Shown: in pieces, positions 8,691 through 45,239 of the stretch
Layout of the letters: each line of letters starts with the position of its first letter
Position numbering within the stretch: position 1 is the stretch's first letter
Assembly (NCBI RefSeq): GCF_016808335.1
Contig: NC_053140.1
Location: 30,126,086-30,190,085 of the forward strand
From: Panicum virgatum
Lineage: Eukaryota; Streptophyta; Magnoliopsida; Poales; Poaceae
DNA length: 64,000 nt
Direction: 5' to 3'
The notes under the pieces: model-generated
What the model was told of the DNA's origin: nothing
The model's database searches: none
Seen by the model: only the letters and a program-made list of their open reading frames with translations
Made by a program: the position numbers and the translations under genes

Positions 8691-9840
8691 TGTTGTCGAC
8701 CGAAACCCACCGGTGAGCAACGACGGGCAACACGAAGAGCCGGGAGGTTGCTAGGGCGCTAGAGGCACTGCTTCCTCGTCGACGGCCCGCAATTTCCGTC
8801 ACGCGCCCGGAGGATGTGTGAAAACCGGGCGTGCCACCTGACCTATACCCGATCAGGAGGGTGCAGACGTGCTCCGAACAGTTTCCTGCATACAAAGACA
8901 TGTGTAAACGTAAGTCCGAGCCGTGGTCGGCTCCCCGGGACGACTCTTGCATCGGCTTTGAAGAGCCGATCGAGTCCTGGTATCCAGATATAGTAAATAA
9001 AGCAAATAACTGTAAAACTGCTTCAATTAAATCTAATTGATCTGATCCACGATAGTAACAGCTTCACTGCTAGATCGGAACATCCTACACGTGACTAGGC
9101 CTAGCGAACATAACAGACAACTAAACCACAAACCAAAACAGAGGCCTAAGAACTAGCAAGAGCCGATTCCCGGAACAATCCCTATCAAGGCTAAGATAAA
9201 GCATCTATTACACCACCAGATCATCCAATCCGTTTGCAAGGCCTAATCTAGCAGATATTATGCCAACTCTTAAGATAAGAGCAAACCATAACAGATCAGA
9301 TGTACTGAACATGAAAGAAGCAGGGTGTTGCCCCTGTGCGACTAGTTCTATGCGATAAGAACTAGCATGAGATTGAAACGTGACTGCACAGAGTCAACAT
9401 GATATTTGCAGATGATAAGCAACGAAGCACAACAAATCTACTAAAAGCCATGCTACGAACATCATGATAACTAGTATCACTCACCATAAAAAATGCTTCA
9501 GTACGAGTAACACCAAGGTAAAAGCAAGAACTATACTGCCCTGATCGCAAGAAGCGATCAGGGCAGCATGGCACTTACTTGGATGAAACCCTAGGATTAG
9601 GGGTGGCGATGCGCCGAGAGTTGTTGTTTGCAAGTCGTGATGACGCTCTCTTTACGAATAACAAAGGATACATATTTATAGTCCGGAGACTTGGGAAACA
9701 ATCTAAACTAATCTTGTCCCGATCGAACTCTATCTCTAATCTTAAACTAAATCTAAGGATACACGGCCAATGTGGCCCAAACGCTCACGCAGGAGCCGAT
9801 TTACAAGCCTTCCTCACCCTGTTAATTTATGGCGATAACA
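8691..9840 (-). repeat. Tat 3' LTR (1150 bp)
   Basis: TGTTGTCGACC...GGCGATAACA on the plus strand. TATA box TATAAATATG on the minus strand at 9680-9671. A 13-bp perfect hairpin (9536-9548 with 9554-9566, loop AAGAA) lies about 110 nt downstream of it. Compared with the 5' LTR it lacks two short segments (near 8977 and near 9817). Confidence 0.92.
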
Positions 9841-9852
9841 CATGCCCCCTGG
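9841..9852 (-). other. Tat polypurine tract
   Basis: Minus strand reads CCAGGGGGCATG immediately before the 3' LTR, where the plus-strand primer is expected. Confidence 0.6.
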
Positions 9853-10094
9853 TTTTGGCAATTATAGTTCCAAAACCAATCCGTCGCTTCATCTTCCCGT
9901 TAATGCTCATTAAACATACTGCAACCACCAAGGAAGACGCAACATCTCTGCAACTGGCTCCTCGTAGAATGTGAAACTGTCGATCCGTCTTCCATCTTTT
10001 CACAATTTAATCTCACCCGAATCGGCTTCTTCCCACAGAAACTCCTTCTTCCTCCTAGAGCCAGTAGCGTAGAAACCCCAATCCTTCACCAGCC

Positions 10095-10701
10095 ATGGCC
10101 ATCTCCTCTTCCTCCGGCTCCAACTCTTTTGGAGACTCTTCTTCTTCTTCGTCTTCCCCTTCTTCTTCTTCCTCCCTCTCGGCTTCCTCCATCAACTCTA
10201 TCCCAGAGAGCCGAGAGCCGACCCCCCGAGTGGGACCCAACAGCAGCCTACGAGGCACTGGCTCCTCTACACTGGGACGCAGAGGAGTTCGACTTCGGGG
10301 TTGCCTTCGAGGAGGACGAGCCCATGACTGAAGGAGAAGACCTCCGGCTCCTGTTCCAAGAGGAGTCGGAGAAGGACGAGGAAGAAGACCCCTCGTCCGA
10401 CGGAGTCGACTCTTCCTCAGAAGAGGAGATCGACTCCCCCTCCGATGACGATGAGCCGATGGGCGGAAAGCCCTTCCGGTTCCTCGGGTCCTCCGAGGAG
10501 GACAGTGAAGAGGAGGTCAGCGGCGACGGCGGCGGCTGGAGCGACTCCGGGTCTGAAGGCGGCTGGAGCGACTCCGGGTCTGAAGGCGGCAGCAGCGCCT
10601 TCAGCAGCGACGACGACGACGACGGCAGCGACGATGACAGCAGCAATGACAACAGCAGCAGGGATATGCCGGCCCGAAGCCCCAAGTGTCGTAGGTACTA
10701 G
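10095..10701 (+). pseudogene. Antisense acidic Ser/Asp/Glu-rich ORF of the Tat element, frameshifted
   Basis: Starts MAISSSSGSNSFGDSSSS at 10095 with a long serine run. At the C-run around 10219-10225 the frame moves by one base, and the following 160 residues (PEWDPTAAYEALAPLHWD, then DEEEDPSSDG and polyaspartate) are open to a stop at 10699-10701. I infer one original protein of about 200 residues, highly acidic in its second half. It is transcribed opposite to gag-pol, next to the 3' LTR. Function unknown; it is distinct from the plant-mobile-domain gene that follows. Confidence 0.55.
10532..10591 (+). repeat. 27-30-bp tandem repeat in the acidic ORF
   Basis: Two consecutive copies encoding GGWSDSGSEG, with a partial third copy. 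Confidence 0.7.
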
Positions 10702-13113
10702 GTACCTACGAACAGTAGTAGTAGTATCGTAGGATTAGGACCAAAAAAAGCCGAAGGATCGATTCCTTTGTAGCAATCGGCTTTCCTTGTAATGAATTCT
10801 CCGTTAATGAAATCGAGTTCCTTCAATTTCGTGTGTCTTCATTCACTTCCCAAAAAGCCGATGGCAACGCATCAGGCTTCCATAAATATCCAAGAGCCGA
10901 CGAAATTCAACTAGAAGCAACCCGCACAAGAGTAGAATATCATTTCCAGCTTGAACCGAACTCGACGTACCCTCAAATTCGAGTGTAATTCGAAAACAAA
11001 GCTCTACAAATCCGATCAAGAACTCTCCAAGCAGCCGGAATTCAGAATCTCCAGCAATCCAACCCTAAATCAACAGATCTGTGTCCATGGCGGATTCTGC
11101 AGTTCAAACAACAAGCTCTAATGATGCGGCAACCCACGGCCTGAAGGTAATATTCGGCCTAATCTTTTAGTTTTCTTCAGCTTACCAAGCTTCTGAAACT
11201 AAAACTCTGAAACATGACACCATACGCATATTTCTGAATTCCTGAATTTCAGGTGTCAAACATCCTTCTGCCGCATCCTTCCAATCCAAAATCTTTCTGT
11301 CTTGGCCCACAAACCCATGAAAACCCCATAGATTTGATCTCTTGTGAAGAAAATAGGGTCCCTTTTGTGAGTCAAAACATTGATTTGAACCTCTGGGCCG
11401 ACTGCTTAAGAGCCTGGCCTAATCCACCTGAAAGCTGGATAACATGGTACAGCAGAGTAGCAAAGCCCACATGCCCTTGTGGCAAGATTTGAACATAGCC
11501 GATGCACTTAGCCTATCACTGTCACCCCTTGACAAAGATGAAAATCTCCGGAAAACCATCGGCTATTTCTGGTCTGATGCTCTGAATTGTTTCCTCTTTA
11601 GTCATGGACCCATGACCCCTACTCTGCTGGATGTGATCATGATCACTGGACTAGACATTAGCTCTCCTAATCCTGCTGCTCACAAAATGGCAGAAGTCCC
11701 CTTCAAACTTTCTTCCAAAGTCAACTGCACAAACTAGGGTACTTATATGAGTCAGCACATGAAAACAAAAGGTCCAGTGACTGAGAAGGAACACACAGCC
11801 TTCTTAAATCTTTGGCTGGAGCACTTCATCTTCTGTGGCCCTTCTTTGGCTCCAACCAAGAACTATCTCCCCTTGGCCTACCACCTGGCCCATGGTAATC
11901 ACACCGGCCTAGGCAAACTTTTTCTTGGAGAAACATACAGATATCTCCATTTAATGACATCTAACTTGCTCAACCACAAGAAACTGAGAACTGGAGGCCC
12001 TTGGTGGTTTATTCAGTTGTGGGCACAACTGTACTTCCAACATCATATTCCCAACTTCCAAGGCCTGACCAAGAACTCTTTCCCCGATGAAAGTGGTAAA
12101 CCAATTAGATGTACTAGCTACGGCCAAGCTTTGTTCAGTCTCCCTGGCAGTAAACTGAATTCAACAAATGCAGCAAACTGGTTTAGAGTCTTCTACAAAG
12201 GACTAGACAATCCTCTCTTCTTCCCGTTTACTGAATCTGAATCCTTTGAGAACCCAACTGCCTTCAGACTAGATAGCTTTACCGATGACGACAGCACTCG
12301 GCATCTGTATTCTTTGATGATTCGACCTAGCTTCCTTCTGTGACACCTCAGGTGTCAATACTTTTAAATCCAATCAATACACCTTAGTTAAAGTTAAAAG
12401 AAAATTTGGGAAAATAATTCAAGAGAAGGGTTCAAATAAAAGACCAGTTATTGCATAAGAAATGAAAGGAGAAAGAAAAAGGGTGAAAAGCTATTCAAAA
12501 GTTAAATTCAAAAATATGCACAAAAATTTAGTTGGCTCATGGGAGGTGTTTCAATTGACATGTGCTCAATTGAACTTCAGCAAAAATCAATTCAAAAACT
12601 GAATAAAACTATAGTCCTTTTGTGCAAATATGCAAAGGTACCAATAGTTCAAAATGTGAGTTTCAAATGAAAATTTGCATAACACAAAAGTTGTAGATCT
12701 TGAAAAGTTATGCAAAAGTGGTATTCAACACTTTTCCATTTGAGCCCTCCAATTAGGAGATAATTTTAGTTTACCGAGAGGTCCCTGGAATTTCAGAAAT
12801 CACAAAAATGCCCTTATCTCCATCTCTCTCTTTCCCGGCCTGCTCTGTTCGCGCCGCCCGCCGTACGTCGCCGGTGGACTTCGTCCACCGCGCGCCCGCG
12901 GCCAAATGGACCCGGGGAAACCTCTCCACGCCACCTGGCCCGCCCCTTGGCGCCCTCCCACGCCCACACGCGTCCCAGGCCGCTCCCCGAGCCGCCACGA
13001 CACCCCAGCCATGCGCCGCGCCGCTGCCTCCTCCGCCCGCTCGCCGTCGACTCGCCCAGGCCAAATCGACCGCCCCCAAGTCACTCCATTCCTCACCCAT
13101 GAGCTCTTTGGCC

Positions 13114-13120
13114 TATAAAG
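13114..13120 (+). promoter_or_regulatory. Tekay 5' LTR TATA box
   Basis: GGCCTATAAAGACCCCC in the CpG-rich U3; the same sequence is at 24980-24986 in the other LTR. Confidence 0.65.
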
Positions 13121-15130
13121 ACCCCCAGAACCCCCACAGTCGCGCCCCTTCTTCCCCTTCTTCCTCCTCCCGCCGCTCCGCCATGGCCGCCGAGATCCAG
13201 CTCGCGCGGGCCGGCTAGCCCAGCCCCACATTGCCCCCTCTGACCACCGCAGCAGCTTCGCCACCTCCCAGTTAAGCTCCACGCGCGCGGAATCGAATCC
13301 AAACCCCCTCCCGAAGCCGTTCCCCTTTTGCGCCGCCGCCGGCGAGCTCAGGCTCACCGCGGACCGGCCAGCTCCGGGGAAGACCGAGCCCGACAGCTAC
13401 CCCAGAAGCATCCACGAGCTCACGCGGTGCTCGTGCGCGCCTTGTTCCCCTACCCCGAGCCCTCCTTCGCCTCCAGCGCCGACGAACCGAACAACCGACC
13501 CGCCATCAACGCCGACGAGCTTGAACCTGTGCTCCAAACGCTCGAACGTCGACCAGGGTAGGTGTTCCTCGATCCTTTCTCCCCCACGCGCCTCCCCGTG
13601 GCAGCCCCGGTAAGCCCTGCACCGCAGAACACCACCGGCAAGATGCCACGGCGGAGAAGGCCGGCGAAGGACCCGGTTGTAATTTCTTTTTTTCGTTCAA
13701 GGGTGTCTCTGCAAGTTTTATAGTGTATACCAGTGAACTTCTAAAATGCAAAACAAATCACAGAAAAATCAGAAAAATGCAAACTCAACTGATCTGGAAT
13801 CCTTGTAACAAAATCTACAAATTTTGTAACATTCACATTTGCAGAAACTCAACCGAATTTAATCTAGGGAAAAGAATAAGAAAACCACCTTATGCATGTT
13901 CATGAAGTTCTACCCATCAAATGACCATGATTTTTTGGATATGTTATCACTAATGGAATGCTAAGATCACAGTAAAAAGATGACACCAACCCAAAACAGT
14001 TATCATGTTAGAACAATCAAGATTCTCTAATCTGTTGTTAGATTTTTCGAATTAATTCAGGAAAATATACACATGACCTTGCTCTGAAAATTTTACTACA
14101 GACTTGTGCCACTGAATCCCTACAAATCTCTAAATTTCAAATTTATTAGAGTTCGTGTGCTATATACCATGATTTATGCTGGTTTAATCAACTTAATTCC
14201 TCATATATAGTTCTTATGCTCAAAAAAATCTATATTTATTTCTGGAGTCTCTTTTAGCTCTATGTTCCTGTCTAAAAATTTTGAGCTGCAGTTACGGAGT
14301 TTTGCTTTGTTGAATAATCATGCTTAGCATCTTAGGGCTAGAATTACTATTTTTGTTCTGAGTAATCTACAATGTTTCTGATCTTTATTTTTGGGCATGA
14401 TCTTGTTTAGAGTATGATCTACCTGTGATAAAAAGTTCAGATGCAATACTGGTCAAATGCATCTTGAGAAATTTATGCAAACTCATGTTAAGTTAACTGA
14501 ATAACTAATTTATCATAGTGAGTTAAATCTTGAAAAATTTTATGGAGTATGTCTAACTCAGGACTAGTCTCTGGTAAAAATTTGAGAACCAAATCCTTAG
14601 TAAAACTTTCTATAGAATTAATCTTTGTTAATGGCTTGCTGTTTTTATTCTTTTTATCACCTCTGCTGTATAAGTGTATAAAATCTGGAAAAATTTCAGT
14701 GCTGAGTATATGCTGTGAAGTTGCTCCCATAAAATTTGCAGCACCAGAACCCATGTTGAACATTCTGTACAAAAAGATGAAGCAACTAGAGTAATCCATT
14801 TGCATGAATAGTTATAGTTTTTGCTCTATGGTAGATGCTGAAATTTTATACCATGAATGTTCAAGTTTGGATCTGAGTTACTTTAGTGTTTCATCACTAG
14901 CTCTTTAGTAGTTGTGTTGTTAAGAAAGAATGAAAGCATGCTATGTGTGAAATTAAAAATGAAAACCCAAAACCCCACTCATTCATGAAGAAACGTAGTT
15001 AGGTTTACTACTCTATAAATGACTGCCCGTGAAATAAACTGTTGAAATCATCACTTAAGTAACTTTTGTTGGACTACAACTTTATCGTGAAGGAAAGAAA
15101 TTGTATCCCTGAATAACTCAAAATCTTGCA

Positions 15131-15385
15131 TTGCATATAGAAACGGTTAACCTCGCGGACGGAGACTACGAACTGGTGCCCGCGGACTCTCGTGCGGAGC
15201 AGGAGGTTAATCTGAACTGTACTAACTTGTCTCAAGACCTGGGCCAAGCCCCAGAAGCTTTTCTGCCAGACAGTGCCCAAGAAGGCAAGCCCTGGAGCAT
15301 AATCCCACTAATTTTTCCGAATTATCATTCTGCTATCTATTTATCTATGTATGGTAATAGTTGGTTTTCTGCATTAAGTTTCTAG
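15131..15385 (+). other. Small conserved reading frame inside the Tekay LTR
   Basis: 84 codons, repeated at 26998-27252 in the 3' LTR. The first 55 residues (DGDYELVPADSR, then QDLGQAPEAF and QEGKP) resemble the 88-codon frame in the diverged LTR at 61112-60846 (RKYELIQESE, then EDLDQSPEE and REGKP). Protein-like similarity between diverged LTR families suggests a real exon or a structured leader. An AG (CATATAG) precedes it, compatible with a splice acceptor. Function unknown. Confidence 0.45.
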
Positions 15386-16728
15386 GCGTTGATCGAAAAC
15401 CTTAGATGCATGATCCATAGGAACCTATGTTTGATTCCGGATCTTTGTACCGACTAGTTGCCATGCTAAATAGGTACGGTAGAAGTCGAGTGGTTTCCTA
15501 CCTCTCGCGAGCAAATAGGAATTGTACTGACTTTGATTCCTGTTGAAATGTAAGGACAACGGGCGGGGTTGTGTAGTTGTGATACCCCGCTGGTGTAGTC
15601 AAAAATGGCTAAGGTCGCGGTGTGTGGCTCATTTCGTTAAGCGTTTGAAAGTACTAGGCACATACCGAGAAATATGGTAATCGGTAAGCTGAAGTACCTG
15701 ATTGGACCGGCGAGTGGAACGATCTCGCACCCTCCTGGTAGAAGTAGGATTTATATTTTTGTCGCGACGTACGGGTGCAGAGTGGTCGGACTCTGTAGTC
15801 GGGGAGGGTGTTCCGGATCCACGGACTGGAAAGAAAGGGGAAAAGTAGCATGGGCGGGAGCGAAGTCGATCCCCATGCGTGTGGTCTAGGTTCCCCTGGC
15901 CAGGTTGAAATCCGATTCAGAATCGTCCGCCTCTCACGGCATGAGATTGCTTAATGCTTTCGGTCACATAGAGTAACAAGTGGAACATGATGATGAAAAT
16001 ACTGCTGGTTGATTAAATGGTTGCTCTACCATGTTTGTGTAGAGTTAGTTGCAAATTTAGAATGGTTAATCCCACTAGAATCCGGCTAAGTAAAACCTGA
16101 AAGTAAGGATCAACACTTAGCGGCATTTTTGGCAAACAAACCCTACCAACCAAAAAGCCTTGCATGTCTAGTTATCGGACTATGTTATATCCGGAGACGG
16201 GTCAGTCTTGTTGAGTATTAGTATACTCAGCCTTGCTTGTGACACTGTTTTTCAGGTACTAACTTTGAAGATCTGTTTGCGAGTCTTACTTGGCCTTGTA
16301 CTCTGCCTCCGGGTTGGTCTGTTGAGTGGGATGGCCCTTCAGCTGGTGCTAATCACCCTTCCGCTGAGTGACGCATTCGTACGGGCTTTACCGATGCGTC
16401 ACGTTATCTCGCTAGTTATCTTTGCTGCTTCCGTTGAACATGAGACTTCAATAATTGAGTAGTTGGAACTCCGTGGTACTTTGTTACTCTGAACTTGGTT
16501 TGTAATAAATTTTCTTTCCGCTGCAATCACTCTGAGATGTATGAAATGGTTGGTGTTGTAATATCTGGGCTCACCTTCGTGTGAGTGTTGTCTGCTGATC
16601 CTGGAATAGCGTGGCTTTTATCGAGGCTTCACTCGAGGAACTACCGGTGAGTGCCAAATCGGGTCAGAGTTGCTTAGCAACGAAGATCAGTGCACCCGGG
16701 CCCAGTAGTTTTGGGTGGTTCCGCCACA

Positions 16729-18130
16729 GCTGGCATCAGAGCTCGCATACAGCCTACCAGAGATGGCAACCTCGGTTTTCAAAACAACAATTTAAAACTT
16801 GACTTCAAAGCTACTAAAGTTTTTGAAAGAGTTTAGGATCTCCAAGGACAAGTCTAGGACGTAAAGCCCTAGGGAATCTTATGGGTATAATCAGGTGGCT
16901 TATTTTGTATGGCTAACTTCCAGCACCTTACTTTTCAGTATTTACATTCTGTAATTTAAATTCTGCAACTACATCATCGCCACGAAGGTATGCTTACTCA
17001 GTCAGCTGAGGGAGTCTGACCTTCCCGTCGGTGATGCGAGACGAACGCTGGAGCTCAAGCAGTGGCCTACTTGAGCTGCTGCCCATATACCAACTTCGGT
17101 TGAGTATATGGGGAGTAATGGTTCGAAATTGGAATTCAATTCCCCGTCAAAGACGGTACTCAGTCAATACGTTGTTTCGATAACGTATGCTTAACGTTGT
17201 CCATACGGCGGTAATGGTATGGATGCCGATTCTATAGTGATCGGTAATGTATGGGGACGCTTTCGTGAGTGCTGGCACGAAAGGTTCATTTTATATACTG
17301 TCAATCTTCTGCAGGTACGCTAACTCGAGATCGAATTATAGGCTATCCAGCTATATCGAGTAGCTATATAGTGAGAGACGTAATAGGTATGCCACCAAAG
17401 TCATTGCGTAAGACCAAGGTTACTTGGCAATTTTTTTTCTTGGTGAGGACGTATAGGTTCTGCATTCATTCTCAAAAAGGTTAGCAAATAAATCTCTGGA
17501 GAAATCGCAAGCAAATCAGCTAAAACACTATCCTAAGGAGTATCCAGAAAGTCTGCAACCTGGTTTCCACGAATTTTAACCTTCTGTTAAGTCACTCAAA
17601 TCGACTTGGGGTAGTAAGACTAAATGATGTTTCCTAAGTTATCAAGCTTCTGTAAAAATTTGAAAATTTTTGAAGCCTTCTAGCATGGTATTTGTATTTT
17701 TGGATCAACCCGGTGTAAAACTGTTAACTCTGAACAGTCTATACAACTGAAATTTTTCGACCTTTATAAGTTGTTCAAACTAAAAATCGTTCAACATGAA
17801 AGTTGTAGACAACTAAGTGATGAGTTTACCATAAAAAGTTGAAATTTTTTTGACGTCTGGGTTGAGAGTTATAGTCAAAATACACCCTCTCTGGACACTC
17901 AGTTTTCCTGGTTGACATCACTCTGAATACCTGAGTATATCACCCCCATGGAATCCGAATTGAGCTTAGTGATGACTAGATGAATTGCTCCTTAATATCA
18001 GAGGGATCTTGTGTAAATTTTTGAGAATTTTTGAAGCAAGTTCTCTACAGTTTTGGCCATTTCTTTCACTGTTCCAGAGTTAGTAGTTCTTGTTACCATC
18101 AGCTGATCCATCGGTCTTTTGTTGGGACAG
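16729..18130 (+). other. Tekay primer binding site and non-coding leader
   Basis: Two bases after the LTR, TGGCATCAGAGC (16731-16742) is one base from the initiator-Met tRNA complement. The rest to 18130 is a leader in which I see no coding signal. Confidence 0.75.
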
Positions 18131-19030
18131 ATGGAAGAGCTGCTGGTCGTTGACGCGCAGGGGCACGTGCACTCCGCTTGCTTGCATTGGGACGGGTTTC
18201 CCCGCCGTCTTTGGGAGCTTTTGAGTGCAGCCGGTTACCTCCAGCCACCGGTTTACGATGGCCACGAGTTTGTTGAGGACGGAGTTCGTCGCTGCAGTGT
18301 GACGATGGTGATTCCGCAGCACCCGCTCAACGGGTGGGAGCCGATCGTGACTTAGATGGTCGGTCACTACCTGCTGGACACTTGGGAGCTTACCGCCATG
18401 AGGGCGATGACCGCTTTTTGCTCTTCGCACCCTCTGGAGGTGGTTCTGACCGCGTTCGGGTTGTTCCCTGCACCTGACCCGGCAGACCCGCTTTGGCTCG
18501 ACCGGATGGCACACGTGGATGTGGTCGCTACCCTTGACCCGGTCGGGGCCCTTCGGACGACAGCGAGGTGCTTGGACGGTCTCTACAGACTTCACACTTA
18601 CCAGGGTTACGCCGTCGCTCAGTTGGTGGACCACGCTCAGGCCCTGCACCTGGCGGTCCAGCTGAGAGATGGGCAGCTTCAGGAGGCTAGTACCGAGCTC
18701 GAGAGCAGGGCTACTCTTATCGCCCAGCTCCACGGCCAGGTTCACGAGCTTCAGGACACTGTGTCAGATCGTGACGCTACGATCAACTTCCTGGAGGACC
18801 AGTTTCACGACCTGCAGCTTGAGATGGACGAGGCTCAGGGGCAGCTCCACGCGATACAGCACGCGCAGGATGCCCTTCACGCACCTCCCGACGAGATACA
18901 GGTGGACAAGGAGGACGAGCCCCAGGAGATAGAGGGCGTTTCAGAGATGGACTCCGAGGACCAGGCGCCGCAGCCCGCAACGGTTGAGGTTCACACTCCC
19001 GCGGCGAGTGAGGCATCGGTCAACATGTAG
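18131..19030 (+). pseudogene. Extra leader ORF upstream of Tekay gag, about 300 codons with one stop
   Basis: From ATG 18131 (MEELLVVDAQGHVHSA) the frame is open through 19030 except for a TAG at 18353-18355. Codon use is GC-rich and the sequence differs from gag. Features: a globular first half (LHWDGFPRRLWELLSAAGY), then a long predicted coiled coil (QLRDGQLQEASTELESRATL to ELEMDEAQG-type repeats, about 18650-18880) and an acidic tail (DKEDEPQEIEG). I do not recognise the family. It sits 640 bp before gag on the same strand. It could be an element-specific accessory protein or a captured host fragment. Confidence 0.55.
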
Positions 19031-19670
19031 ACCGAGGCGCTGTTTCTTAGCTTTTGTAGACTCCTCTAGTGTGGCCTACTTTTGGATCATGGCTACTAGG
19101 CTAACTTAGAGTTGAGTAACCCCCTTAGTACTGATGTTGGGAGTGACCAAGTAGAAATGAGAGAACGATGGATGTAATGAACCGCTAATGCTACTAGTGA
19201 TCTGCAAAAAGCTGAAGGCAGCAGCTAGTTCGAATTTTTATCCTCTTTTCCTTTCGGATTTAGCTCCTGAGTTGAATACCAAAGTTGTTCCAAATTTCAT
19301 CAGGAACCTGCTCGCAAAATTTCAGCCCAAACGGATTGGTATTGCAGGAGATAATCGCAAATTACAGAAGCTCTGTTTTCTGTGAAGCAGAAAAACCAGA
19401 GGAGGAGTAATTGAATTTTTCGACTAACCTACTCTGGAAATCTGACTTTGTGATGACTACCAAAGTTGTAGATCATGAAATTTCCTCTCTCTTGTAAAAA
19501 TTTCAAGTCCATATCATGTACCGAACTCCAGTTATGAGCATTTTCGTATCGCTGGTTTTGCTGCACAACCTGATTAAGCAATTTCCAGTATTTCCATGTC
19601 ATTTTGAGTTGTATATTCCATTTGAAATGATGATAATGATGAGCCTAATGCAAAAGTACTCACATTTCAG

Positions 19671-24194: not shown

Positions 24195-24205
24195 GGGGGG
24201 TAGGT

Positions 24206-28595: not shown

Positions 28596-30400
28596 CCTTC
28601 CTTTTGGCATCAGCACTTCTAACAGAATTATCAAGCCAGGCTATGAATCTTACCAGCTAGTCATAGTAGCTCGGCAATTTGGCCTAGGACAGGTCCCTTC
28701 CCACTTCCATATTCACCACTTGGTGGAGAGCAGAGCCGATCTGCCTGACGGTCTTACCAGTTCAAGATGCTACAACATGTTTGATGACCTCCACATTCCA
28801 ATACCAGCCGATTTGTCCTTCACTTCTTCATCAATCGGCTTTGATACCTGGTGGAAGATGTGGACAACACATGTATTCAGGAAAGCTCTAGGCCCTCAAC
28901 TGCAGCAAATCGATCCTGAATACGTAATCCCCGAGGAAGAGGTACTGATTTTATGCATTCATCCTTTTGAATCCTCAATTCCTTTCTCTTGGCTTAACCT
29001 GCTCATCCTGTTAGCAGCAACAAGATGGTCCAGAACCCATGACCAGTACTGGAGAGCCATTTCACCTTCTTCCAACTGCTCCTGATGTTCTCTTCTGCAA
29101 AGGATCACCACCAATGAAGAAAGTGATAATGTCTGTTCAGCCAGACTTACTTCAGTCGGCTTCCAAGCGAAGACAAACTTCTGCAAGTGTTGCCCCCGAG
29201 TCTTGACCAAGAAAAGGAAGATGATCACGAGGCGAGTGATCAAGAAACCAACACCAGCTTCTTCGAGTCCATCAGAGTCTAATACCAACCAGGTAACTTC
29301 TCCCTCTGAAACTTCTTCTTTATCTCATACATGTATACTCTGGTTGACTGCAGTTCTATGTTCAGAATGCAGCTGAAGAAATCCCTAGTGTCGAAACCCT
29401 AGATCAACATGAGACAGCTGCAACTCCTGATGCACTGATGGATGCAAGTGAGGAACAAGCCGATGCAGCAGATGCTCTTGACGTCAACACCAGTTTTGAT
29501 AGGACGATTGCTCCTGAACCGTCCAACACTTCTTCTTCGGAACAGGTAACATTACAAAAACCAATTCTGAACCAGCCGATAACTCCATAAATGCATCTTG
29601 CACTAACTCCAGATACGCCCATAGAGTTTTGATATTTCAGGTTTGCTTTCCTTTGACCCTGCATCAATGGGTCTAACTATCCCTGGGTCAGAAACATCAT
29701 CTCTACAGCAATCGGCTAACCTAACACATCAGCTTCAACTTATCAAGGATCTTCTATCTGCCCCAATCATTGCTCTGGTTGATGATTCCAGTAAAATAAA
29801 GAACATCTTCGAGCAAATAGAATCCCAACTCCCGGAACCATTGCAAATCAAGCTCTGGTCAGCCAGCAACCTCCCATTCTTCCGGATAGAAGTCAGTAAA
29901 GCGCAAGAAAGGATGAAAGCACGTCGCTCTCAAGCTTCTCTGAAAGCCGACATTACCCAAAAATGCAAGGCTCTCAACCAAAAGAAAGCAACTCTAGATA
30001 TCAAAGCTGACGTATCTGCCAACATGAATCGACTCGACCTCCTGAAGAAAGAGCTGGCGGAACTCGAAGAAAAGGTCCACATTACCAAGGAACTCATCCA
30101 GGCCGAGGAAACTTCCATTGCAAACTCCAAACAAGAAACCCAGAAGATATCTGAGCAAATACAAGCAGCGTTTGCAGAGATCAGCACCTTGAGTCGGCAG
30201 ATAGTTTCAGGCAATGACAAGGATGACGAAGCGATTGTAGCACGTGCAGACGCCGTTCGTACTGAAGCCATCCACGCCATAAAAGAATTCCTGAACCAGT
30301 AGATAGGCTCAAGATACAATTAGTATTGCCTGTTAACCCGAAAGTTGTACTTGTTTAAAAACATCTCAAGTCGATGGTAATACATCGGCTATCTTTCTTT

Positions 30401-30515
30401 ACCGGCCAACTCAACGTGTTGGCCTATCATCATCATATTTTTTTTTACCGGCCAACTCAACGTGTTGGCCTATCATCATTTTTTTTTGTGCGGCCAACTC
30501 AACGTGTTGGTCTAT
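30401..30515. repeat. Triple hairpin tandem repeat between convergent Tat genes
   Basis: Three copies, spaced 46 and 42 bp, of GGCCAAC-TCAACGT-GTTGGCC (30404-30424, 30450-30470, 30492-30512; the last has one stem mismatch), each followed or preceded by a T-run. It lies between the end of the antisense PMD gene (30302) and the end of integrase (30551). Confidence 0.8.
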
Positions 30516-30550
30516 TACACTGCAGCCAGATGGATCTCATCGGCTTTTCT

Positions 30551-31954
30551 TTATTCGTCTTTCCACATGCTCGGGAAATACTTCTTCAGATGCTGTCCAT
30601 TGACAGCAATAGGAAACTTGACGCCGTCCAATTCCTCGAGCATGTACGCATTCCCAGGCAAAGCCTGATCAACCTTGTACGGACCATGCCAAGTTGGAGA
30701 CCATTTACCAAACTTTTTATCTTTAGTTCCCAATGGCAATACTGCCTCCCAAACCAAGTCTCCCACCTGGAAATCCTTAGGTTTGACCTTCTTGTTGTAT
30801 GCACGGGCAACTTTGGCTTTGTTCTCTTTGATTTTTTCCAGCGACCAAAGCCTTAGCTCTATCAGATCCTCCACATTATCATTCATCAAGGCTGCATACT
30901 GTTCAGCAGATAGATCATTCTGAAACTCAACACGCCTTGATCCGGCTGTGATTTCCCACGGTAGCACAGCATCCTGGCCGTAGACTAAATGGTACGGCGA
31001 CGTCTTGGTGGACCCATGACACGAAATACGATATGCCCACAAAGCTTCTGACAACACCTCATGCCAGCGCCTAGGATATTCATCGATCTTTCTTTTTATG
31101 AGCTTGATGAGGCTCTGGTTGGATGCTTCAGCCTATCCATTAGCTTGGGCATAATATGGAGATGATCTGATCAGGTTAATCCCCATGTCATCGGCAAACT
31201 TTCTGAACTCCTCCGATATAAAGACCGATCCTCCATCGGTCGTAATGGTCTGAGGGATCCCAAATCTGTGAATGATGTGTTCTTTGACAAAGCTGATCAC
31301 ATCTCTTGATGCCACTGACCTCATGGGTACTGCCTCTACCCACTTTGTGAAATAATCTGTGGCAGCCAAGACCCATTGGTGACCCTTGCTAGACGACGGG
31401 TTGATCTGTCCAATCATGTCCATGCCCCAACCTCTGAATGGCCAGGGTTTGATGATAGGATTCATCATTGACGCTGGCACTATCTGAATTTTGCCAAACC
31501 TCTGACATGCTTGACATCCCTTGTAATATTTGAAACAATCTTCAAGCATAGTGGGCCAGTAATAACCCGATCGCCTAATCAGCCATTTCATCTTATGAGC
31601 CGATTGGTGAGTACCGCAGGCTCCTTCATGTACCTCATGCAAGAGCCGATTTGACTCTGAAGGTCCCAGGCATTTAAGTAGTAGTCCTTCCAAGGTCCTG
31701 TAGAACATATCGTCCCCTATCAGAACATATTTCATGGCCTTGAGTCTTATCCTTCTGGGTGCCCCCCGAGCCGAATCCTTCAAGTAATTGAAGATATCGG
31801 CTCTCCAGTCTCCGGGTTCTAGAAACTGAACCTCTACCTCGACTCCATCGGCTGTCTCCTTGTAACCAGAAGCCATTTGTGCCAAATCATTGGCTTCATT
31901 ATTCAGAGTCCTGCGTATCCAGTGGAAATTGATGTACCTGAATCGTGACATCAA
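30551..31954 (-). pseudogene. Tat integrase, interrupted by one stop
   Basis: Zinc finger HEGACGTHQSAHKMKW followed by GCQACQR; core motifs GWGMDMIG (D), TTDGGSVF (D), and AEASNQ (E) just past a TAG at 31135-31133 (ANG*AEAS). C-terminal domain has WKWSPTWHGPYKV-type residues (GKWSPTWHGPYKVDQ). No chromodomain, as usual for Tat. The stop is the only break I see here. Confidence 0.9.
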
Positions 31955-32759
31955 CTCATGGCACTACATCCATATCGGGAAAAGAGCCTCGCTCTCACAC
32001 CTATATTCCTCCGTGAGCTGAGAAATCACTAGCTTCGAATCTCCAAAAATTTACACTGCTTCTGCACCGGCTTCGAGAAGCAATTCCATCCCTTTTCGAA
32101 CGGCTTCATATTCCACGAGATTATTGGTGCACGGGGCAGTCATTCTGATAGAGAAGGAATAAGTCGCCCCTCAGGGCGACACCAACAGAATTCCCACACC
32201 GCACCCATCATCACAAGCCGATCCGTCAAAGAACATAGCCCAAGCACGAATAAATAATGCAGCAATATCAGTGCTGATCCTATCCGCAACAAGATCCGCC
32301 AGTGCTTGTCCCTTGACTGCTTTTGCAGGCTGGTATCGGATATCGAACTCTGACAATGCAAACATCCATTTTCTAAGTCGACCTTTAACGATAGGGGCCG
32401 ACAGCATATGCTTTATGACATCCGATTTGCATATGACAATTGTTTCCGCCGAGAGCAAAATATGACGAAGCTTTGTACATGTAAAGTATAAGCAAAGGCA
32501 AAGCTTCTCGATTTTAGGGTACCTGGTCTCGGCGTCTAACATGCGTCTGCTAAGGTAGAAAACCACCATCTCCTGGCCGTCATGCTTCTGAACCAACACC
32601 GAAGCAATAGAAGTGTCACCCACAGATAGGTACACATAAAACGGCCTATCATGCTGAGGAACCAACACTGGAGGCTTTGACAAATATTCCTTGATTTCAT
32701 CGAAAGCTTGTTGCTGTTCTGCCCCCCCCAGCGAAACTCATCATCGGATTTGATCTTTA
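31955..32759 (-). pseudogene. Tat RNase H and second (archaeal-type) RNase H, broken
   Basis: The first domain has PFYVYLSVGDTSIASVLVQ and VVFYLSRRMLDAETRYP. The second has WAMFFDGSACDDGCGVGI, then NNLVEYEAV and IFGDSKLVISQLT after a stop at 32173-32171. The duplicate RNase H is a Tat-lineage hallmark. A frameshift lies at the C-run (plus strand 32722-32729) between RT and RNase H. Confidence 0.85.
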
Positions 32760-33527
32760 CTAAACCATAAACGGCTCAATGCGTCCGAACAGATTAGAAA
32801 TAAATCGCCTGATAAAGTTAATTTTACCGATGAGTTTCTGTAACTCCTTCTTTGTAGTAGGCGGCTTCATCATCTTCACAGCTTCTTGACTCTTTAGGCC
32901 GATCTCAATTCCCCGTTCGTGCACCAGGAATCCTAGAAACTGACCGGCCGACACACCGAAAGCGCACTTTTTCGGGTTCATTTTGAGCCCAAACCTTCGA
33001 GTCCGCTCCAAAACTTGGCGCAGATCTTCTAGATGCCCCGCAGCTGACTTGGACTTGACCACGACGTCATCAATATAAATCTCTACCAGCTTGCTGATGA
33101 GATCATGAAAAATGTAATTCATGGCACGTTGGTACGTTGCACCGGCATTTTTCAGTCCGAAGGTCATAACCAAGTACTCGAACAAGCCAACTGCACCTGG
33201 TACTCTGAACGCAGTCTTGTTCACATCCTCTGGGGCCATGAAGATCTGGTTGTAACCGGCATTGCCATCCATAAAACTCATCATTTTGTGGCCAGCAGCT
33301 GCGTTGATCAATGTTTCTGCAACAGGCATCAGGTACTCGTCCTTTGGCGTTGCTCTGTTGAGATCTCTAAAGTCAACGCAAACACGCCATCGGCCATCCT
33401 TCTTTTGTACCAGCACCACGCTAGAGATCCACTCTGCATATCGGCATGGCCTGATGAACCCAGCATCCAGCATGTTTTCTACCTCTTTCTTAACCTCTTC
33501 CAGGACTTCGGCCTTCATCTGACGTGC
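32760..33527 (-). pseudogene. Tat reverse transcriptase
   Basis: Open from about 33524 to TAG 32762-32760. Motifs: RVCVDFRDLNRATPKDEYLM, AGYNQIFM, MTFGLKNAGATYQR, and the catalytic EIYIDDVVVKS. The frame upstream is cut by a TGA at 33530-33528 and downstream by the TAG, so no full polyprotein is made. Confidence 0.9.
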
Positions 33528-35684
33528 TCATTGCTGAAACGGTCGAAACCCTTTCTTGAGCGGGAGCCGATGCTCGACTATGCTTCTATCCAGTCCAGGC
33601 ATCTCTGTGTAGTCCCATGCAAAGCAATCCCAGTATTCTTTTAGCAGTGTGATCACCTCCTCTCGCAAAGCCGGATCCAACTTCTTGCTGATAAATGTCG
33701 GCCGTGGCTTATCCCCAGGACCGATGTCAATCTCTTCCAAATCATCAGCTGATGTGAACCCGTATCCGAGTTTGCCGTCATCTAAAAAATCAGCCGCGAA
33801 TGCAAGCGAGTCTTCACTATCCACAAGATCAGCAGCAAACATAGGGAGATGACAAGAAAAATTATTTGGCCAACCGCACGGGCTGGCCGCTTCTATACTT
33901 CTATTATTTCTCAGAGCCAAATAGTCGATGAGTGACCAACTGCCAGAGCAGGCCATCGTGTGTACATGATGTAACAATTCCGACCAAAAACAGAATTTTT
34001 CTATTTTTCGGGGCCGATCGCCGGGACCGGCCTCTCTATTTTTATTACACTCCGTGGCATGCCAGGATGCGTTTACTCTGTGAGGCCAGTGGATAAGACC
34101 AGCCTCAATCCGTTTTTTTGTCGCCTCAATCCGATCACAGTCTTCCAGGGCGATCCCTGAGATCGGCTCTTGTCCTTCCGCGTCCCAGGCGTTCATATCT
34201 GCGACCGAGACCTCACTGGAATCATCTGCAGGGACCACTTCTACTTCATCGCCATCGCATTGGACGAGATACTGGTGCATTGTGGAAGGGATACAACAGT
34301 TGGCATGAATCCAGTCCCTTCCAAGCAGCACCGTGTATGTACTCTTGCTGTTAACGATGAAGAACGATGTCGGTACAGTCTTGCGGCCCACTGTCAGTTC
34401 CACATTAAGAACCCCCATCGCCTCTGATGGCTGTCCATTAAAGTCATTAAGCATCACATTGGTCTTGATCAAATCGGCAGAAGAACGACCCAATCGGCGC
34501 AGCACAGAATATGGCATCAGGTTAACTGCGGCACCAGTGTCGACCAACATCCTGTTCACAGGCTTGCCGTCAATGAAGCCCTTGAGATATAACCCCTTCA
34601 AGTGTTTGTAGCTCTTCTCCTTGGGCTTCTCGAAAATGATCGGCCGTGGGCCGAGATCCGGCTGCGCGATGGCCAATTCCTCCGGTTAGGGTGCTCGAAA
34701 CTCCGACGGGAGCACGAACACCATGTTCACATCAGCCGATGGCTTCTCATCGGTGTTTGTCTACTTGGGGCGCCACTCCATCCTCGGGGGGCGCCTCTCT
34801 TCCTTCTGCGGTCGCCTAACTTGCTCTGCTAGATCCGGACACGCTTTCCTCAGCATGTCAAGATACTTTGCTTCTGCCTCTTCCAGATTGCGCAGGCGCT
34901 GTTCTCTGCGCTTCTGCGACCGATTGAGCCCATCAGGACACCACCGTGGGCGATGGTACCTGTCTTCTTCCTCTAGCTCTGAATCACCCCTGGATGGGCG
35001 CCTCACATGGTTATCCTGACGTGTTCTGGGCCCCAAACGCCGGAACAACGATGTCTTGTCCTACTAGTGTCCTCGAGGCCTGCACTCCAAGCAATCATCT
35101 ATAGTGAGTAATCGGCTCATGCCGGAATTCCAACAGTACCTGAAGAACGGGCAATGCCAATGGTCGCGTATAGCTTGGCGCCTCCCCAATGTCCTTCCTG
35201 AGCGGTGCTCGTACTCGTCTTCCTCCGATTCGTATCGGCGGCGTAGCTGGTACTGGTACTGGTATTTTTCCAGAAGCCGATTAGAAACTGGAAGCTGATT
35301 GCGGATGTGACGCACTTGCTCTTCAGTCACATGCTGCTATTCCAACTCGTGTTCATTCTGCGGCCGCTTGCCAGAAGCGGCCTCTCTCCTCTGCTTGTCA
35401 TGGCGGCGCATAGGTCCCACCATGTTGATCTGGAATGCCAGATCTTGGCCCTCGGACCTGAAGTCTGACAGTTCCACCACGTTAGCTTGTGGGAAGGGCT
35501 TCGTATCCACCTTCATAGTGTGCTGAGCCAGGATTAATCGGCCTTGCTCGATAGCCGATTGGATCTGGTGACGCAGCTGCTTGCATTCACCCGTGGCATG
35601 AGTAAACGAGTGGTGCCACTTGCAGTATAGCCTTCCCTGCAGCTCTTGTGCCGTCGACAGCTTGTGATTTTTTGGGAGCTTCAG
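33528..35684 (-). pseudogene. Tat zinc-knuckle, linker and aspartic protease region
   Basis: After gag the same protein continues with YCKWHHSFTHATGEC, a Tat-type zinc-binding segment (about 35620), and a charged Arg/Glu-rich linker. Protease motif RMLVDTGAAVNLMP lies at about 34560, with VLLGRDWIH further on. Stops at 35339-35337, 35066-35061 (two), 34760-34758 and near 34688 break it. The last part (34676-33528) is open for 382 codons and ends before RT with the LDRSIVEHRLPLK motif. Confidence 0.82.
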
Positions 35685-37199
35685 CTATTTTTCTTTGAGG
35701 AGCAGGTCGAATATCTGCTCTGTTTTTGTCACGTCGAAGTCGAAGCCCTTCACAAGCCCCTGCTGCTTGATCCACTTGCATGGGACAGGATTTGCCCCCC
35801 GAGTCCACTCTGCCACGGCCACTTCTTGCTCCTCACCCGAGTCCTCAGATTCATCTGCCTGGGCCATGTTCACATGGCGCTTGAACTTGTCCTGGTACAG
35901 CTCAGGATGATAATGCTCGTATGCTGTAAGCTTCTGCACCAGGTGCGCCAGAGACGTGAGCTCCAACTGGAAAGTTGCATCTTTGATCGGCTTAGCAAGT
36001 CCCAGGACAGCCAGATCGACTGCCTCTTTCTCTGTGATGCGCGACGAGTAGCATCGGTTCTTGACCTCCCTGAAGCGCTGTATGTACTCTGACACGGTCT
36101 CTCCTCGCTTCTGCCTGACTTGGGCGAGGTCGGCAATTCCAGCTTCTGCAGCTTTCGAGTGGTACTGGGTATGGAATTGATCTTCAAGCTGCCTCCAAGT
36201 CTGAATCGAATCCGGAGCTAGTGACGCATACCATCCAAAAGCTGGGACTGTAAGGGATTGGCCGAAGAACCGGACCCTCAATGGATTCGACACTGAGATC
36301 ATCCCAAGCTGTGTTAAGTATCGGCTCACATGCTCGATGGAGCTGGCTCCCTCTGACCCGTTGAACTTGGTGAACTCAGGAAGCCGATACTTGGGTGGCA
36401 GTGGGATCAAGTCGTAGTCGCTTGGATACGACTTGTAATAGCCGATCGCTTTCCTCTTGGGCAGGATGCCGAACTGGTCTCTGAGTATTGCACTGACCTG
36501 CTCCACACTAAGAACTCTTGGGGCCGATGGCTCAGCACTCGGCCCAGTAGCGTACTTTGCCAGCCACGCTTGTTTTTCTGCGTCTGCTCCAGAAGCTCCT
36601 GGGTTCACCATCTGCACCGAGCGTGCTGGACTGACGCTGTCAGGGATGTAGGCGCACGTGTAGCCGTGCGGAATTAACTTAGGTGGCTCGGTGAGGAACT
36701 GGCCTTCTCCAGGATCACCGCCGATCTTGTGGACGACGTAGATCGGCGAGCTCTGTGGTCTGGGAGCTGCGAATGAGAATGGCAGTTGCGGCCTAGAATG
36801 CAGTGCAGCTTCCTCTGTGTGACTCCCCAGGATTGGCCCCGATGGAGAGTACTGGTTCTTGATTATCTCCTGGATGATGCGATGCGCCATGCGCTCAAGT
36901 TCGTTCATCAGGCTCTGAGACTGCCGATGAAGCGCATGGGCCACCATGTAGTTCATCTCCTGACGCAGGGCTCTGGTGCGTTCTTCAGATGGTACAGACA
37001 GATCTACATTGTCCAGAGCGCCTTCTGGTGAGAACCCCTTCCACTTGATGCCATGGTTGCGAGTCCTCTCAAAAGAGCCGATGAGATCGGCTTCCAGCAG
37101 AGCTTTGATCTCATCATACTTCTTCTTGTGTTCAGGAGGAAGCTCTTCATATGTGACGGGCTTGGGAGCAGGTTCTTGATCTTGAGCTCCAGTCATCAT
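35685..37199 (-). CDS. gag: Tat Gag
   Basis: About 504 residues from MMTGAQDQEP; I chose this ATG because the longer frame starts inside the LTR. N-terminal half is charged and proline-rich. The retrotransposon-gag core is at about residues 280-420 (YRLPEFTKFNGSEGASSIEH, then FGQSLTVPAFGWYASL and RQKRGETVSEYIQRFREVKN). Capsid protein of the element. A TAG (35687-35685) ends the frame before the zinc-binding segment, which continues in the same frame. Confidence 0.87.
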   Translation of the reverse strand: MMTGAQDQEPAPKPVTYEELPPEHKKKYDEIKALLEADLIGSFERTRNHGIKWKGFSPEGALDNVDLSVPSEERTRALRQEMNYMVAHALHRQSQSLMNELERMAHRIIQEIIKNQYSPSGPILGSHTEEAALHSRPQLPFSFAAPRPQSSPIYVVHKIGGDPGEGQFLTEPPKLIPHGYTCAYIPDSVSPARSVQMVNPGASGADAEKQAWLAKYATGPSAEPSAPRVLSVEQVSAILRDQFGILPKRKAIGYYKSYPSDYDLIPLPPKYRLPEFTKFNGSEGASSIEHVSRYLTQLGMISVSNPLRVRFFGQSLTVPAFGWYASLAPDSIQTWRQLEDQFHTQYHSKAAEAGIADLAQVRQKRGETVSEYIQRFREVKNRCYSSRITEKEAVDLAVLGLAKPIKDATFQLELTSLAHLVQKLTAYEHYHPELYQDKFKRHVNMAQADESEDSGEEQEVAVAEWTRGANPVPCKWIKQQGLVKGFDFDVTKTEQIFDLLLKEK

Positions 37200-37222
37200 T
37201 GCAGTGGATGTTGTTGCCGAGA

Positions 37223-37240
37223 GTCCCACCGGGCGTGCCA
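37223..37240 (-). other. Tat primer binding site
   Basis: Minus strand TGGCACGCCCGGTGGGAC, five bases after the 5' LTR. It begins TGG as tRNA-primed sites do; I do not assign the tRNA. Confidence 0.6.
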
Positions 37241-37245
37241 GGATG

Positions 37246-38446
37246 TGTTGTCGACCGAGACCCACCGGCGAGCAACGACGGGCAACACGAAGAGCCGGGA
37301 GGTTGCTAGGGCGCTAGAGGCACTGCTTCCTCGTCGACGGCCCGCAATTTCCGTCACGCGCCCGGAGGATGTGTGAAAACCGGGCGTGCCACCTGACCTA
37401 TACCCGATCAGGAGGGTGCAGACGTGCTCCGAACAGTTTCCTGCATACAAAGACATGTGTAAACGTAAGTCCGAGCCGTGGTCGGCTCCCCGGGACGACT
37501 CTTGCATCGGCTTTGAAGAGCCGATCGAGTTCCGGTGTCAGATGGGATCTGATTGTATCCAGATATAGTAAATAAAGCAAATAACTGTTAAACTGCTTTA
37601 ATTAAATCTAATTGATCTGATCCACGATAGTAACAGCTTCACTGCTAGATCGGAACATCCTACACGTGACTAGGCCTAGCGAACATAACAAACAACTAAA
37701 CCACAACCCAAAACAGAGGCTTAAGAACTAGCAAGAGCCGATTCCCAGAACAATCCCTATCAAGGCTAAGATAAAGCATCTATTACACTACCGGATCATC
37801 CAATCCGTTTGCAAGGCCTAACCTAGCAGATATTATGCCAACTCTTAAGATAAGAGCAAACCATAACAGATCAGATCTACTAAACATGAAAGAAGCAGGG
37901 TGTTGCCCCTGTGCGACTAGTTCTATGCGATAAGAACTAGCATGAGATTGAAACGTGACTGCACAGAGACAACATGATATTCGCAGATGATAAGCAACGA
38001 AGCACAACAAATCTACTAAAAGCCATGCTACGAATATCATGATAACTAGTATTACACGCCATCAAAAATGCTTCAGTACGAGTAACACCAAGGTAAAAGC
38101 AAGAACTATACTGCCCTGATCGCAAGAAGCGATCAGGGCAGCATGGCACTTACTTGGATGAAACCCTAGGATTAGGGGTGGCGATGCGCCGAGAGTTGTT
38201 GTTTGCGAGTCGTGATGACGCTCTCTTTACGAATAACAAAGGATACATATTTATAGTCCGGAGACTTGGGAAACAATCTAAACTAATCTTGTCCCGATCG
38301 GACTCTATCTCTAATCTTAAACTAAATCTAAGGATACACAGCCAATGTGGCCCAAACGCTCACGCAGGAGCCGATTTACAAGCCTTCCTCATCTTTTGCT
38401 TTAGGCTCATCTTGATTTCGGCCCATGTTAATTTATGGCGATAACA
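37246..38446 (-). repeat. Tat 5' LTR (1201 bp)
   Basis: Same termini as 8691-9840. Minus-strand TATA box TATAAATATG at 38255-38246; the 13-bp hairpin is at 38111-38141. Adjacent to the primer binding site, so this is the 5' LTR. Confidence 0.92.
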
Positions 38447-38451
38447 CAAAC

Positions 38452-45093: not shown

Positions 45094-45103
45094 CGATAAA
45101 TAG
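45094..45103 (+). promoter_or_regulatory. TATA-like box of the CACTA transposase gene
   Basis: GATAAATAGC directly follows the subterminal repeat array and lies about 800 bp before the first coding ATG at 45897. Confidence 0.4.
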
Positions 45104-45239
45104 CCCCCCCACCCCCCTCCAAGCTGTTGTGAACTCATTGTTCATGGCAGCCAAGTGACGGGAGGGGAGGAGAATTTTTGCAATTTTTTTAAAAAGGTTA
45201 GTATTTTTTTTCTCCATGATTTAGAAATTAATTTTTAAG

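Follow-up and report, generated by a model that had tools for sequence, protein, structure and literature searches.

A 7-bp word dispersed along a Tat-type LTR retrotransposon of Panicum virgatum is a candidate protein-binding site

Introduction

Why does one short DNA word recur along the whole length of a retrotransposon, genes and noncoding regions alike, and hardly anywhere around it? The question is raised by a 64,000-bp stretch of the Panicum virgatum genome (assembly GCF_016808335.1, contig NC_053140.1, positions 30,126,086–30,190,085 of the forward strand; hereafter, the window). The minus strand of this window carries a 13.5-kb Tat-type long terminal repeat (LTR) retrotransposon in which an exact scan finds the 7-mer AGCCGAT, or its reverse complement ATCGGCT, 39 times. 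The element is split by a nested Tekay element and contains antisense genes, one of them encoding a protein with a PMD domain. An initial annotation of the window had proposed that the constraint acts on DNA rather than on protein and that an element-encoded factor might recognise the word, with the VANC anti-silencing proteins of VANDAL transposons as the closest parallel. In the excerpts of the literature cited here, the function of Tat-clade antisense proteins is described as not known (PMC7264820, PMC11963269); a sharply defined, selected 7-mer gives these proteins a testable target.

Abundance and specificity of the motif

AGCCGAT is the commonest 7-mer of the Tat element. All 39 copies listed in the initial annotation exist, 38 of them exactly at the coordinates given and the remaining one at 9161 instead of 9171. 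Chance tests were run on the element with only one LTR (12,349 bp, 35 sites). In 300 dinucleotide shuffles, a control that the initial annotation had named as a possible refutation, the motif appeared 1.38 times on average and 6 times at most, so that the observed number is not within expectation; the top count for any 7-mer in any of the shuffles was 13. Markov models predicted 1.5–6.5 copies at orders 1–3 (6.5 at order 3) and 17.9 at order 4, the higher-order predictions being larger because the sub-words of AGCCGAT are themselves enriched and an order-4 model already knows its 5-mers.

The 21 one-base variants of the motif have only 0–6 copies each and AGCCGAT is, therefore, sharp over all seven positions. 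The earlier impression that such variants abound holds for just a few of them, the excess over the rest of the window being clearest for GGCCGAT (6 vs 1.0), AGCCGAC (5 vs 0.5), and CGCCGAT (4 vs 0.2). At position 7, we counted 35 AGCCGAT, 5 AGCCGAC, 2 AGCCGAG, and 2 AGCCGAA.

The motif also belongs to this element family. The nested Tekay element contains two copies (18339 and 22553), as initially reported, which is the chance level, and the other DNA of the window contains four (2878, 38951, 51481, and 60460) instead of about five. The first look of one gag search of the genome gave 13,811 raw candidate places, 63 of which were scored. Forty scored gag matches of another search provided ten copies retrieved in two pieces each (L031–L050) and 19 copies as 4.6-kb loci (L012–L030), after exclusion of the window itself (L001) and of L002–L011, which are contained in L031–L050. 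The ten copies hold 341 sites in 126,395 aligned bp (2.70 per kb), compared with 4 sites in the 18,105 bp of unaligned DNA of the same 20 stretches (0.22 per kb). By these counts, the motif is dense in the family and rare elsewhere, in the sense of the rest of the window plus these 18 kb.

Arrangement of the sites

The density of sites varied between 1.7 and 4.1 per kb depending on the region: 3.3 and 3.5 in the LTRs, 3.8 in gag, 4.0 in the link between gag and the protease gene, 1.7 in pol, and 2.4 and 4.1 in the antisense-gene region. Their spacing is random (coefficient of variation 0.94 vs 0.95 in the null), and we rejected regular spacing on this basis. The flanks of 35 sites are unrelated, save for a frequent A at positions −3 (20/35) and −2 (18/35) and the absence of T at −3, which implies that the sites arose independently and not from a repeat array. 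In agreement with this, the sole array that Tandem Repeats Finder detected near any site, at 30390–30515, overlaps the site at 30384 by its final base only, and a repeat origin was ruled out.

Thirteen sites lie within the six gag-pol open reading frames (ORFs) tested, where they occupy all three frames in each orientation, as had been claimed for gag-pol. Shuffling synonymous codons 2000 times left a mean of 1.7 sites and a maximum of 8 in these ORFs. Constraint at the protein level, through favoured dipeptides that yield the word as a consequence, would suit some sites, such as the pair at 37076/37086, where the encoded gag peptide is conserved. However, it is hardly credible given the sites in LTRs and other noncoding DNA, the use of all frames, the excess over synonymous shuffling, and the deficit of shared synonymous changes described below; for the site set as a whole we consider it refuted. 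Since the sites occur in both orientations, in LTRs, in introns, and in all frames, a ligand of double-stranded DNA is indicated.

Conservation among genomic copies

The aligned parts of the ten copies are mostly 88–97% identical to the window; in three of them, the stretch retrieved (L044, L048, and L050) misses the antisense end and the 3′ LTR wholly or in part. Of the aligned window sites, 319/351 (91%) were intact. Control words were retained less often: 7-mers that contain CG and have four G/C in 73% of cases, rearrangements of the motif's own letters in 77%, and CCGA-containing words in 76–79%. Among the 39 well-sampled members of the first of these classes, however, the motif came only 8th on a symmetric conservation score (the seven words above it are all rarer and two overlap AGCCGAT). 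This rank makes the retention suggestive only and we therefore split the variants by the number of rows that share them.

Counting a column as variable when both alleles occur in at least three rows avoids the bias of picking sites by the window's own sequence. Rows are locus pieces, and both LTRs of one copy may count as two rows. Alignments shorter than 300 bp and 3′ LTR columns were dropped from the column tests, the minimum being 8 rows per column in the shared-allele test (in which 50 duplicate cells were skipped) and 6 in the single-row, pN/pS (ratio of nonsynonymous to synonymous polymorphism), and coding/noncoding class tests. By this criterion, 0/237 motif columns were variable, where 11.8 were predicted from base context, and 0/33 sites, where 8.9 were predicted; 0/5000 resamples were as low, the copies being related by descent and the context-matched resampling taking columns as exchangeable, which is true for shared history and not for neighbouring local constraint. 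With at least four rows, there were again no variable motif columns versus 7.1 expected (P = 0.0008).

The deficit extended to changes that leave proteins unaffected. Although these class tests rest on small expected numbers, at the three-row threshold the noncoding columns alone gave 0/62 where 3.6 were predicted (P = 0.027), and the coding sites gave 0/106 for synonymous changes where 4.0 were predicted (P = 0.018). At the two-row threshold, the values were 2 versus 7.5 in noncoding columns (P = 0.013) and 2 versus 7.5 for synonymous changes (P = 0.020). Together with the synonymous shuffles, these numbers bear out the initial proposal that the constraint is on DNA.

Variants found in a single row, which mostly arose after insertion, were about as frequent per cell within the motif as outside it: 0.0105 vs 0.0120 for CpG, 0.0148 vs 0.0144 for CHG, 0.0038 vs 0.0043 for A/T, and 0.0089 vs 0.0084 for other G/C positions. 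A normal single-row rate combined with the lack of widely shared variants suggests that dead copies decay neutrally whereas the propagating lineage keeps the word. A mere by-product, that is, a word bias produced without any selection by mutation or by gene conversion, or left from an old tandem array, would have precedents, since other transposons often carry repeated short words, and CACTA-like elements of this same window do so; yet it is very improbable here, as it fits neither this contrast between the two classes of variants nor the unrelated flanks and the lack of an array at the sites. The propagating lineage seems to be under selection to keep a site in double-stranded DNA throughout LTRs, introns, and genes, and we consider it very probable from these sequence comparisons that AGCCGAT is a selected, DNA-level binding site.

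Some copies also have sites absent from the window, at 34749 (27/29 rows), at 10895 (2/8), and at three positions in one row each. The first of them, intact in nearly all rows, was therefore lost in the window copy.

Diverged subfamilies

We examined three of the 63 scored places, one copy each of the subfamilies alpha, beta, and gamma. In descending order, the three identities over the LTR and the start of gag were 87%, 84%, and 75% (gaps included); the most diverged subfamily was 85% identical over a further noncoding LTR stretch. Across the three, 11/13 homologous sites were retained, whereas other CG-containing 7-mers of these alignments predict 5.2 (P = 0.0015); with one copy per subfamily, private and subfamily losses are indistinguishable, and the gag pair sits in a conserved peptide. 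Beta retained 3/3 sites in the noncoding LTR stretch at 85% identity. As far as subfamilies of the same genome go, the check on relatives that had been suggested at the outset thus favoured the initial proposal. Among viral_contigs and genome_contigs, no usable relatives were found; a weak match (L055, 33% identity over a short piece) had 2 motif sites in 13.7 kb.

Two inverted pairs of motifs differ in geometry, AGCCGAT N3 ATCGGCT (37076–37092) and ATCGGCT N6 AGCCGAT (37506–37525). The N3 pair is retained whole in beta and gamma, with a single motif retained in alpha; the N6 pair is whole in alpha and beta, with a single motif in gamma. Such pairs may hint at a dimeric ligand.

A candidate ligand encoded by the element

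The initial annotation had named two antisense products, the PMD protein and an acidic one, as possible ligands. Based on variants common to at least two rows, pN/pS was 0.13–0.17 for the first part of the PMD coding sequence, 0.11 for its continuation beyond the Tekay insertion, and 0.18 for an antisense coiled-coil-like ORF, in comparison with 0.32 for gag, 0.13 for protease, and 0.05 for reverse transcriptase. The PMD and coiled-coil ORFs are, hence, under purifying selection similar to that on protease and stronger than that on gag. The acidic ORF had a pN/pS of 1.35 from just 10 shared variants, which gives no sign of protein constraint. In Lolium, PMD relatives are ~69% identical, some of them in long ORFs (gag there is ~65% identical). 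One of these, P0121 (853 aa), unites PMD with a basic segment and a charged tail in a single ORF; the tail, compared by eye, resembles the coiled-coil ORF. The PMD coding sequence and the coiled-coil-like ORF are therefore probably one gene, with the coiled-coil-like ORF probably corresponding to the C-terminal part of the PMD protein. Purifying selection and the existence of the Lolium relatives make the PMD/coiled-coil protein the best candidate ligand, and judging from these sequences it fits better than the acidic protein.

Possible function and alternatives

AGCCGAT would be recognised, in double-stranded DNA, by a sequence-specific binding protein. The Tat-type element keeps ~2.7–2.8 such sites per kb over its body, and the sequence evidence supports their maintenance by selection on the transposing lineage; the ligand would most likely be its own antisense protein, with PMD, basic and coiled-coil parts, encoded between pol and the 3′ LTR. 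The most economical reading would be a system of self-recognition, in which the element encodes the protein and its own DNA bears the address. The bound protein might mark the copies and keep, or return, their chromatin in an unmethylated and transcribable state, in the manner of VANC, across genes and noncoding DNA. We give this whole explanation, anti-silencing by the element's own PMD protein at AGCCGAT, a rough probability of 0.4. As to its parts, the identity of the ligand as the element-encoded PMD protein falls a little short of an even chance, and anti-silencing, as opposed to another effect of binding, is more tentative. The spread of sites over the whole length fits a body-wide function, such as gene bodies free of silencing marks or coating of cDNA, better than a promoter function.

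Several observations, in addition to the middling rank on the conservation score, weigh against this explanation. When alleles in at least two rows are considered, 11/237 motif columns vary against 23.2 expected (P = 0.003) and, per site, 11/33 against 15.1, which is not significant (P = 0.10); the deficit of shared variants is, thus, not absolute. We found no site at a new position, hence no site turnover, in 2.4 kb of subfamily DNA. Single-row C-to-T decay at the CpG of the motif equals that at other CpGs, with no sign of unmethylated sites in old copies. Unlike VANC targets, the sites do not gather in noncoding DNA. Sequence searches retrieved no solved-structure relative of PMD, and its structure prediction was too poor for use (mean predicted local distance difference test score, pLDDT, of 39.6). 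Four other PMD loci (L051–L054), without blastn similarity to the Tat element, hold 0–1 AGCCGAT per 3.9 kb. Finally, we rejected the idea that the motif is the PMD-associated ‘DOWN’ motif, since the sole printed PMD-linked motif that we found in the excerpts consulted, exemplified by MORC1 (CATGCAGTTT), is unrelated (PMC9899485).

The main rival is the capture of a host factor, with the sites binding a host protein that the element exploits, for instance an AP2/ERF-type activator or an open-chromatin factor. Conservation implies only that some ligand exists, and the core of the motif is like those of plant cis-elements: the CRT/DRE core RCCGAC and the GCC-box AGCCGCC share AGCCG or GCCGA with it, and AGCCGAC is above background (5 vs 0.5). 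However, DRE factors prefer C at position 7, where the Tat element strongly prefers T (35 vs 5), so that the pattern is not that of DREB/CBF sites. In addition, the sites extend over gag-pol, introns, and LTRs at 1.7–4.1 per kb with random spacing, instead of being clustered at promoters, and the surrounding DNA sampled is not enriched. We regard a host ligand as rather unlikely. If a host factor does bind, the family could sequester it on a very large scale, considering the 13,811 raw candidate places (63 scored).

It is also conceivable, though decidedly unlikely, that the sites serve the element's own antisense protein in another way: copy-number repression, a switch between antisense and sense transcription, or protection, nuclear import or targeted integration of cDNA. 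Body-wide sites independent of orientation would suit the coating of linear cDNA as well as chromatin. Moreover, according to the parts of the sources available, the antisense protein of Grande is nuclear (PMC7264820), and the TRP28 domain of Retand is predicted to bind DNA (PMC11963269). On the other hand, self-repression would not be readily selected in amplifying copies. If, returning to VANC-like self-recognition, PMD binds the motif, LTR retrotransposons may possess sequence-specific anti-silencing, and a biochemical activity would be assigned to PMD, the domain of the silencing factors MAIN and MAIL1.

Structure of the element

The assignment to the Tat clade of Ty3/gypsy elements relies on the two LTRs and on the gag, protease, RNase H, and integrase genes recognised with Pfam, reverse transcriptase having been identified by sequence reading (Table 1). 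Excerpts of a survey of the clade mention an additional archaeal-type RNase H between RNase H and integrase in Ogre/Retand, as well as PMD in 57% of Ogre and Transposase_28 in 23% of Retand elements (PMC6317226). In the Tat element, a match to RVT_3 at the start of the integrase ORF was sub-threshold (E = 0.0016), and PMD (PF10536) is present. The acidic, PMD, and coiled-coil-like ORFs all lie in antisense orientation in the region that separates pol from the 3′ LTR; the acidic one is serine-rich, with short repeats. The array at 30390–30515 is a 46-bp tandem repeat of 2.9 copies located at the junction between pol and the antisense genes.

Table 1 Features of the Tat-type element and AGCCGAT sites in window coordinates (sites are 7 bp each)
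Feature	Position	Strand	Basis or remark
3′ LTR, Tat-type element	8691..9842	-	blastn vs 37246-38448, 96.2% identity; 4 motif sites
5′ LTR, Tat-type element	37246..38448	-	same blastn LTR pair; 4 motif sites
Nested Tekay element, outside motif system	12339..28595	+	LTR pair 12339-16728 / 24206-28595, 99% identity
gag ORF	35685..37265	-	Retrotrans_gag PF03732
Protease ORF	33528..34676	-	ORF list and Pfam
Reverse transcriptase ORF	32760..33518	-	position and sequence reading, without domain scan
RNase H ORF	32171..32683	-	PF17917, PF17919
Integrase ORF	31133..31954	-	H2C2 zinc finger and rve core (Pfam)
Antisense PMD coding sequence, first part, cut by Tekay	11432..12343	+	PF10536, 8e-14 on 11747-12343
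Antisense PMD coding sequence, continuation beyond Tekay	28591..29085	+	
Antisense coiled-coil-like ORF	29625..30302	+	
Antisense acidic, low-complexity ORF	10129..10701	+	no Pfam family
Motif	8951..8957	-	inverted pair with 8964, start spacing 13
Motif	8964..8970	+	inverted pair with 8951
Motif	9161..9167	+	earlier given as 9171
Motif	9794..9800	+	exact scan
Motif	10021..10027	-	exact scan
Motif	10454..10460	+	exact scan
Motif	10776..10782	-	exact scan
Motif	10856..10862	+	exact scan
Motif	11497..11503	+	exact scan
Motif	11558..11564	-	exact scan
Motif	28734..28740	+	exact scan
Motif	28806..28812	+	exact scan
Motif	28834..28840	-	exact scan
Motif	29458..29464	+	exact scan
Motif	29574..29580	+	exact scan
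Motif	29711..29717	-	exact scan
Motif	30384..30390	-	exact scan
Motif	30539..30545	-	exact scan
Motif	31598..31604	+	exact scan
Motif	31644..31650	+	exact scan
Motif	31796..31802	-	exact scan
Motif	31847..31853	-	exact scan
Motif	32216..32222	+	exact scan
Motif	33565..33571	+	exact scan
Motif	34162..34168	-	exact scan
Motif	34734..34740	+	exact scan
Lost site, ATCGGTG in window copy	34749..34755	-	intact in 27/29 aligned rows
Motif	35111..35117	-	exact scan
Motif	35275..35281	+	exact scan
Motif	35553..35559	+	exact scan
Motif	35986..35992	-	exact scan
Motif	36320..36326	-	exact scan
Motif	36382..36388	+	exact scan
Motif	36440..36446	+	exact scan
Motif	37076..37082	+	inverted pair with 37086, start spacing 10
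Motif	37086..37092	-	inverted pair with 37076
Motif	37506..37512	-	inverted pair with 37519, start spacing 13
Motif	37519..37525	+	inverted pair with 37506
Motif	37736..37742	+	exact scan
Motif	38369..38375	+	exact scan

Other repeated words

A CACTA-like element at 44734–54982 of the window has the termini CACTACTAGAAA and TTTTCCAGTAGTG, subterminal words of the type GGTACCGGTT, and an array with a 20-bp period at 49168–49727. A second cluster, with words of the type CCGGTACTAA in both orientations at 7616–8227, looks like another CACTA-like subterminal region.

Downstream of the PMD gene of each of the four other PMD loci, L051–L054, a different CG-containing word is repeated (CTGCCGCC, GGCGCGAC, CTGTCGCC, and GGCGTGAC), with 6–9 copies of an 8-mer each, located within tandem arrays in L053 and L054. 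Since 12/47 slices of the window reach at least 6 copies of a word, mostly CACTA-like subterminal words, we take those of L051–L054 as a lead only and not as evidence; they are possibly DNA-transposon subterminal repeats or PMD targets. A broader generalisation, which we consider quite unlikely, would be that PMD is an evolvable DNA-binding domain borne by transposons, with its own word in each family that it shields from silencing, MAIN and MAIL1 being domesticated readers of DOWN. If this were true, LTR retrotransposons would have a VANC-like anti-silencing of separate origin.

Comparison with known systems

In CACTA transposons, a TnpA-like protein binds subterminal repeats. The proposed Tat system would resemble them in having an element-encoded protein on many short sites of its own element, but CACTA sites are clustered at the two ends whereas those of the Tat element are distributed over the body, genes included.

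The excerpts available for the PMD proteins MAIN and MAIL1 tie them to transposon silencing and to a promoter motif (PMC7156037, PMC9899485); for DOWN, direct binding is not demonstrated in these excerpts (PMC9899485). Closer in genetic organisation is TRP28 (Transposase_28) of Retand, predicted to bind DNA and, like the PMD protein, the product of an antisense ORF that a Tat-clade element carries between pol and its 3′ LTR, in Retand sometimes with an SMC domain. The domain differs, being PMD (PF10536) in our element, and the portions of the source at hand describe no body-wide motif for Retand (PMC11963269). More generally, we found no body-wide motif of an LTR retrotransposon in the excerpts of open-licence literature covered, including two papers that mention VANC and, in those excerpts, no LTR-retrotransposon counterpart of it (PMC12859917, PMC12844716).

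The nearest known parallel that we found is the one initially proposed, VANC in the Mutator-like VANDAL elements of Arabidopsis. As excerpted, the motifs are YAGTATTAY for VANC21 and AGTTGTCC/AGTTGTAC for VANC6 (PMC5735166), and self-recognition of this kind, by an encoded protein and its motif, rids the VANDAL family of DNA methylation (PMC5735166, PMC10398659). Binding and demethylation are demonstrated for VANC and proposed for the Tat system. Most VANC targets are tandem arrays that lie in noncoding DNA and repeat the motif in one orientation, whereas the Tat sites stand singly at dispersed positions, point either way, have unrelated flanks, and extend into coding regions. Furthermore, the Tat element is an LTR retrotransposon and not a member of the VANDAL class, and its extra protein matches PMD only. 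What both have in common is a short motif that is dense in one transposon family and rare elsewhere, for which an extra protein encoded by the element itself would be the natural ligand.

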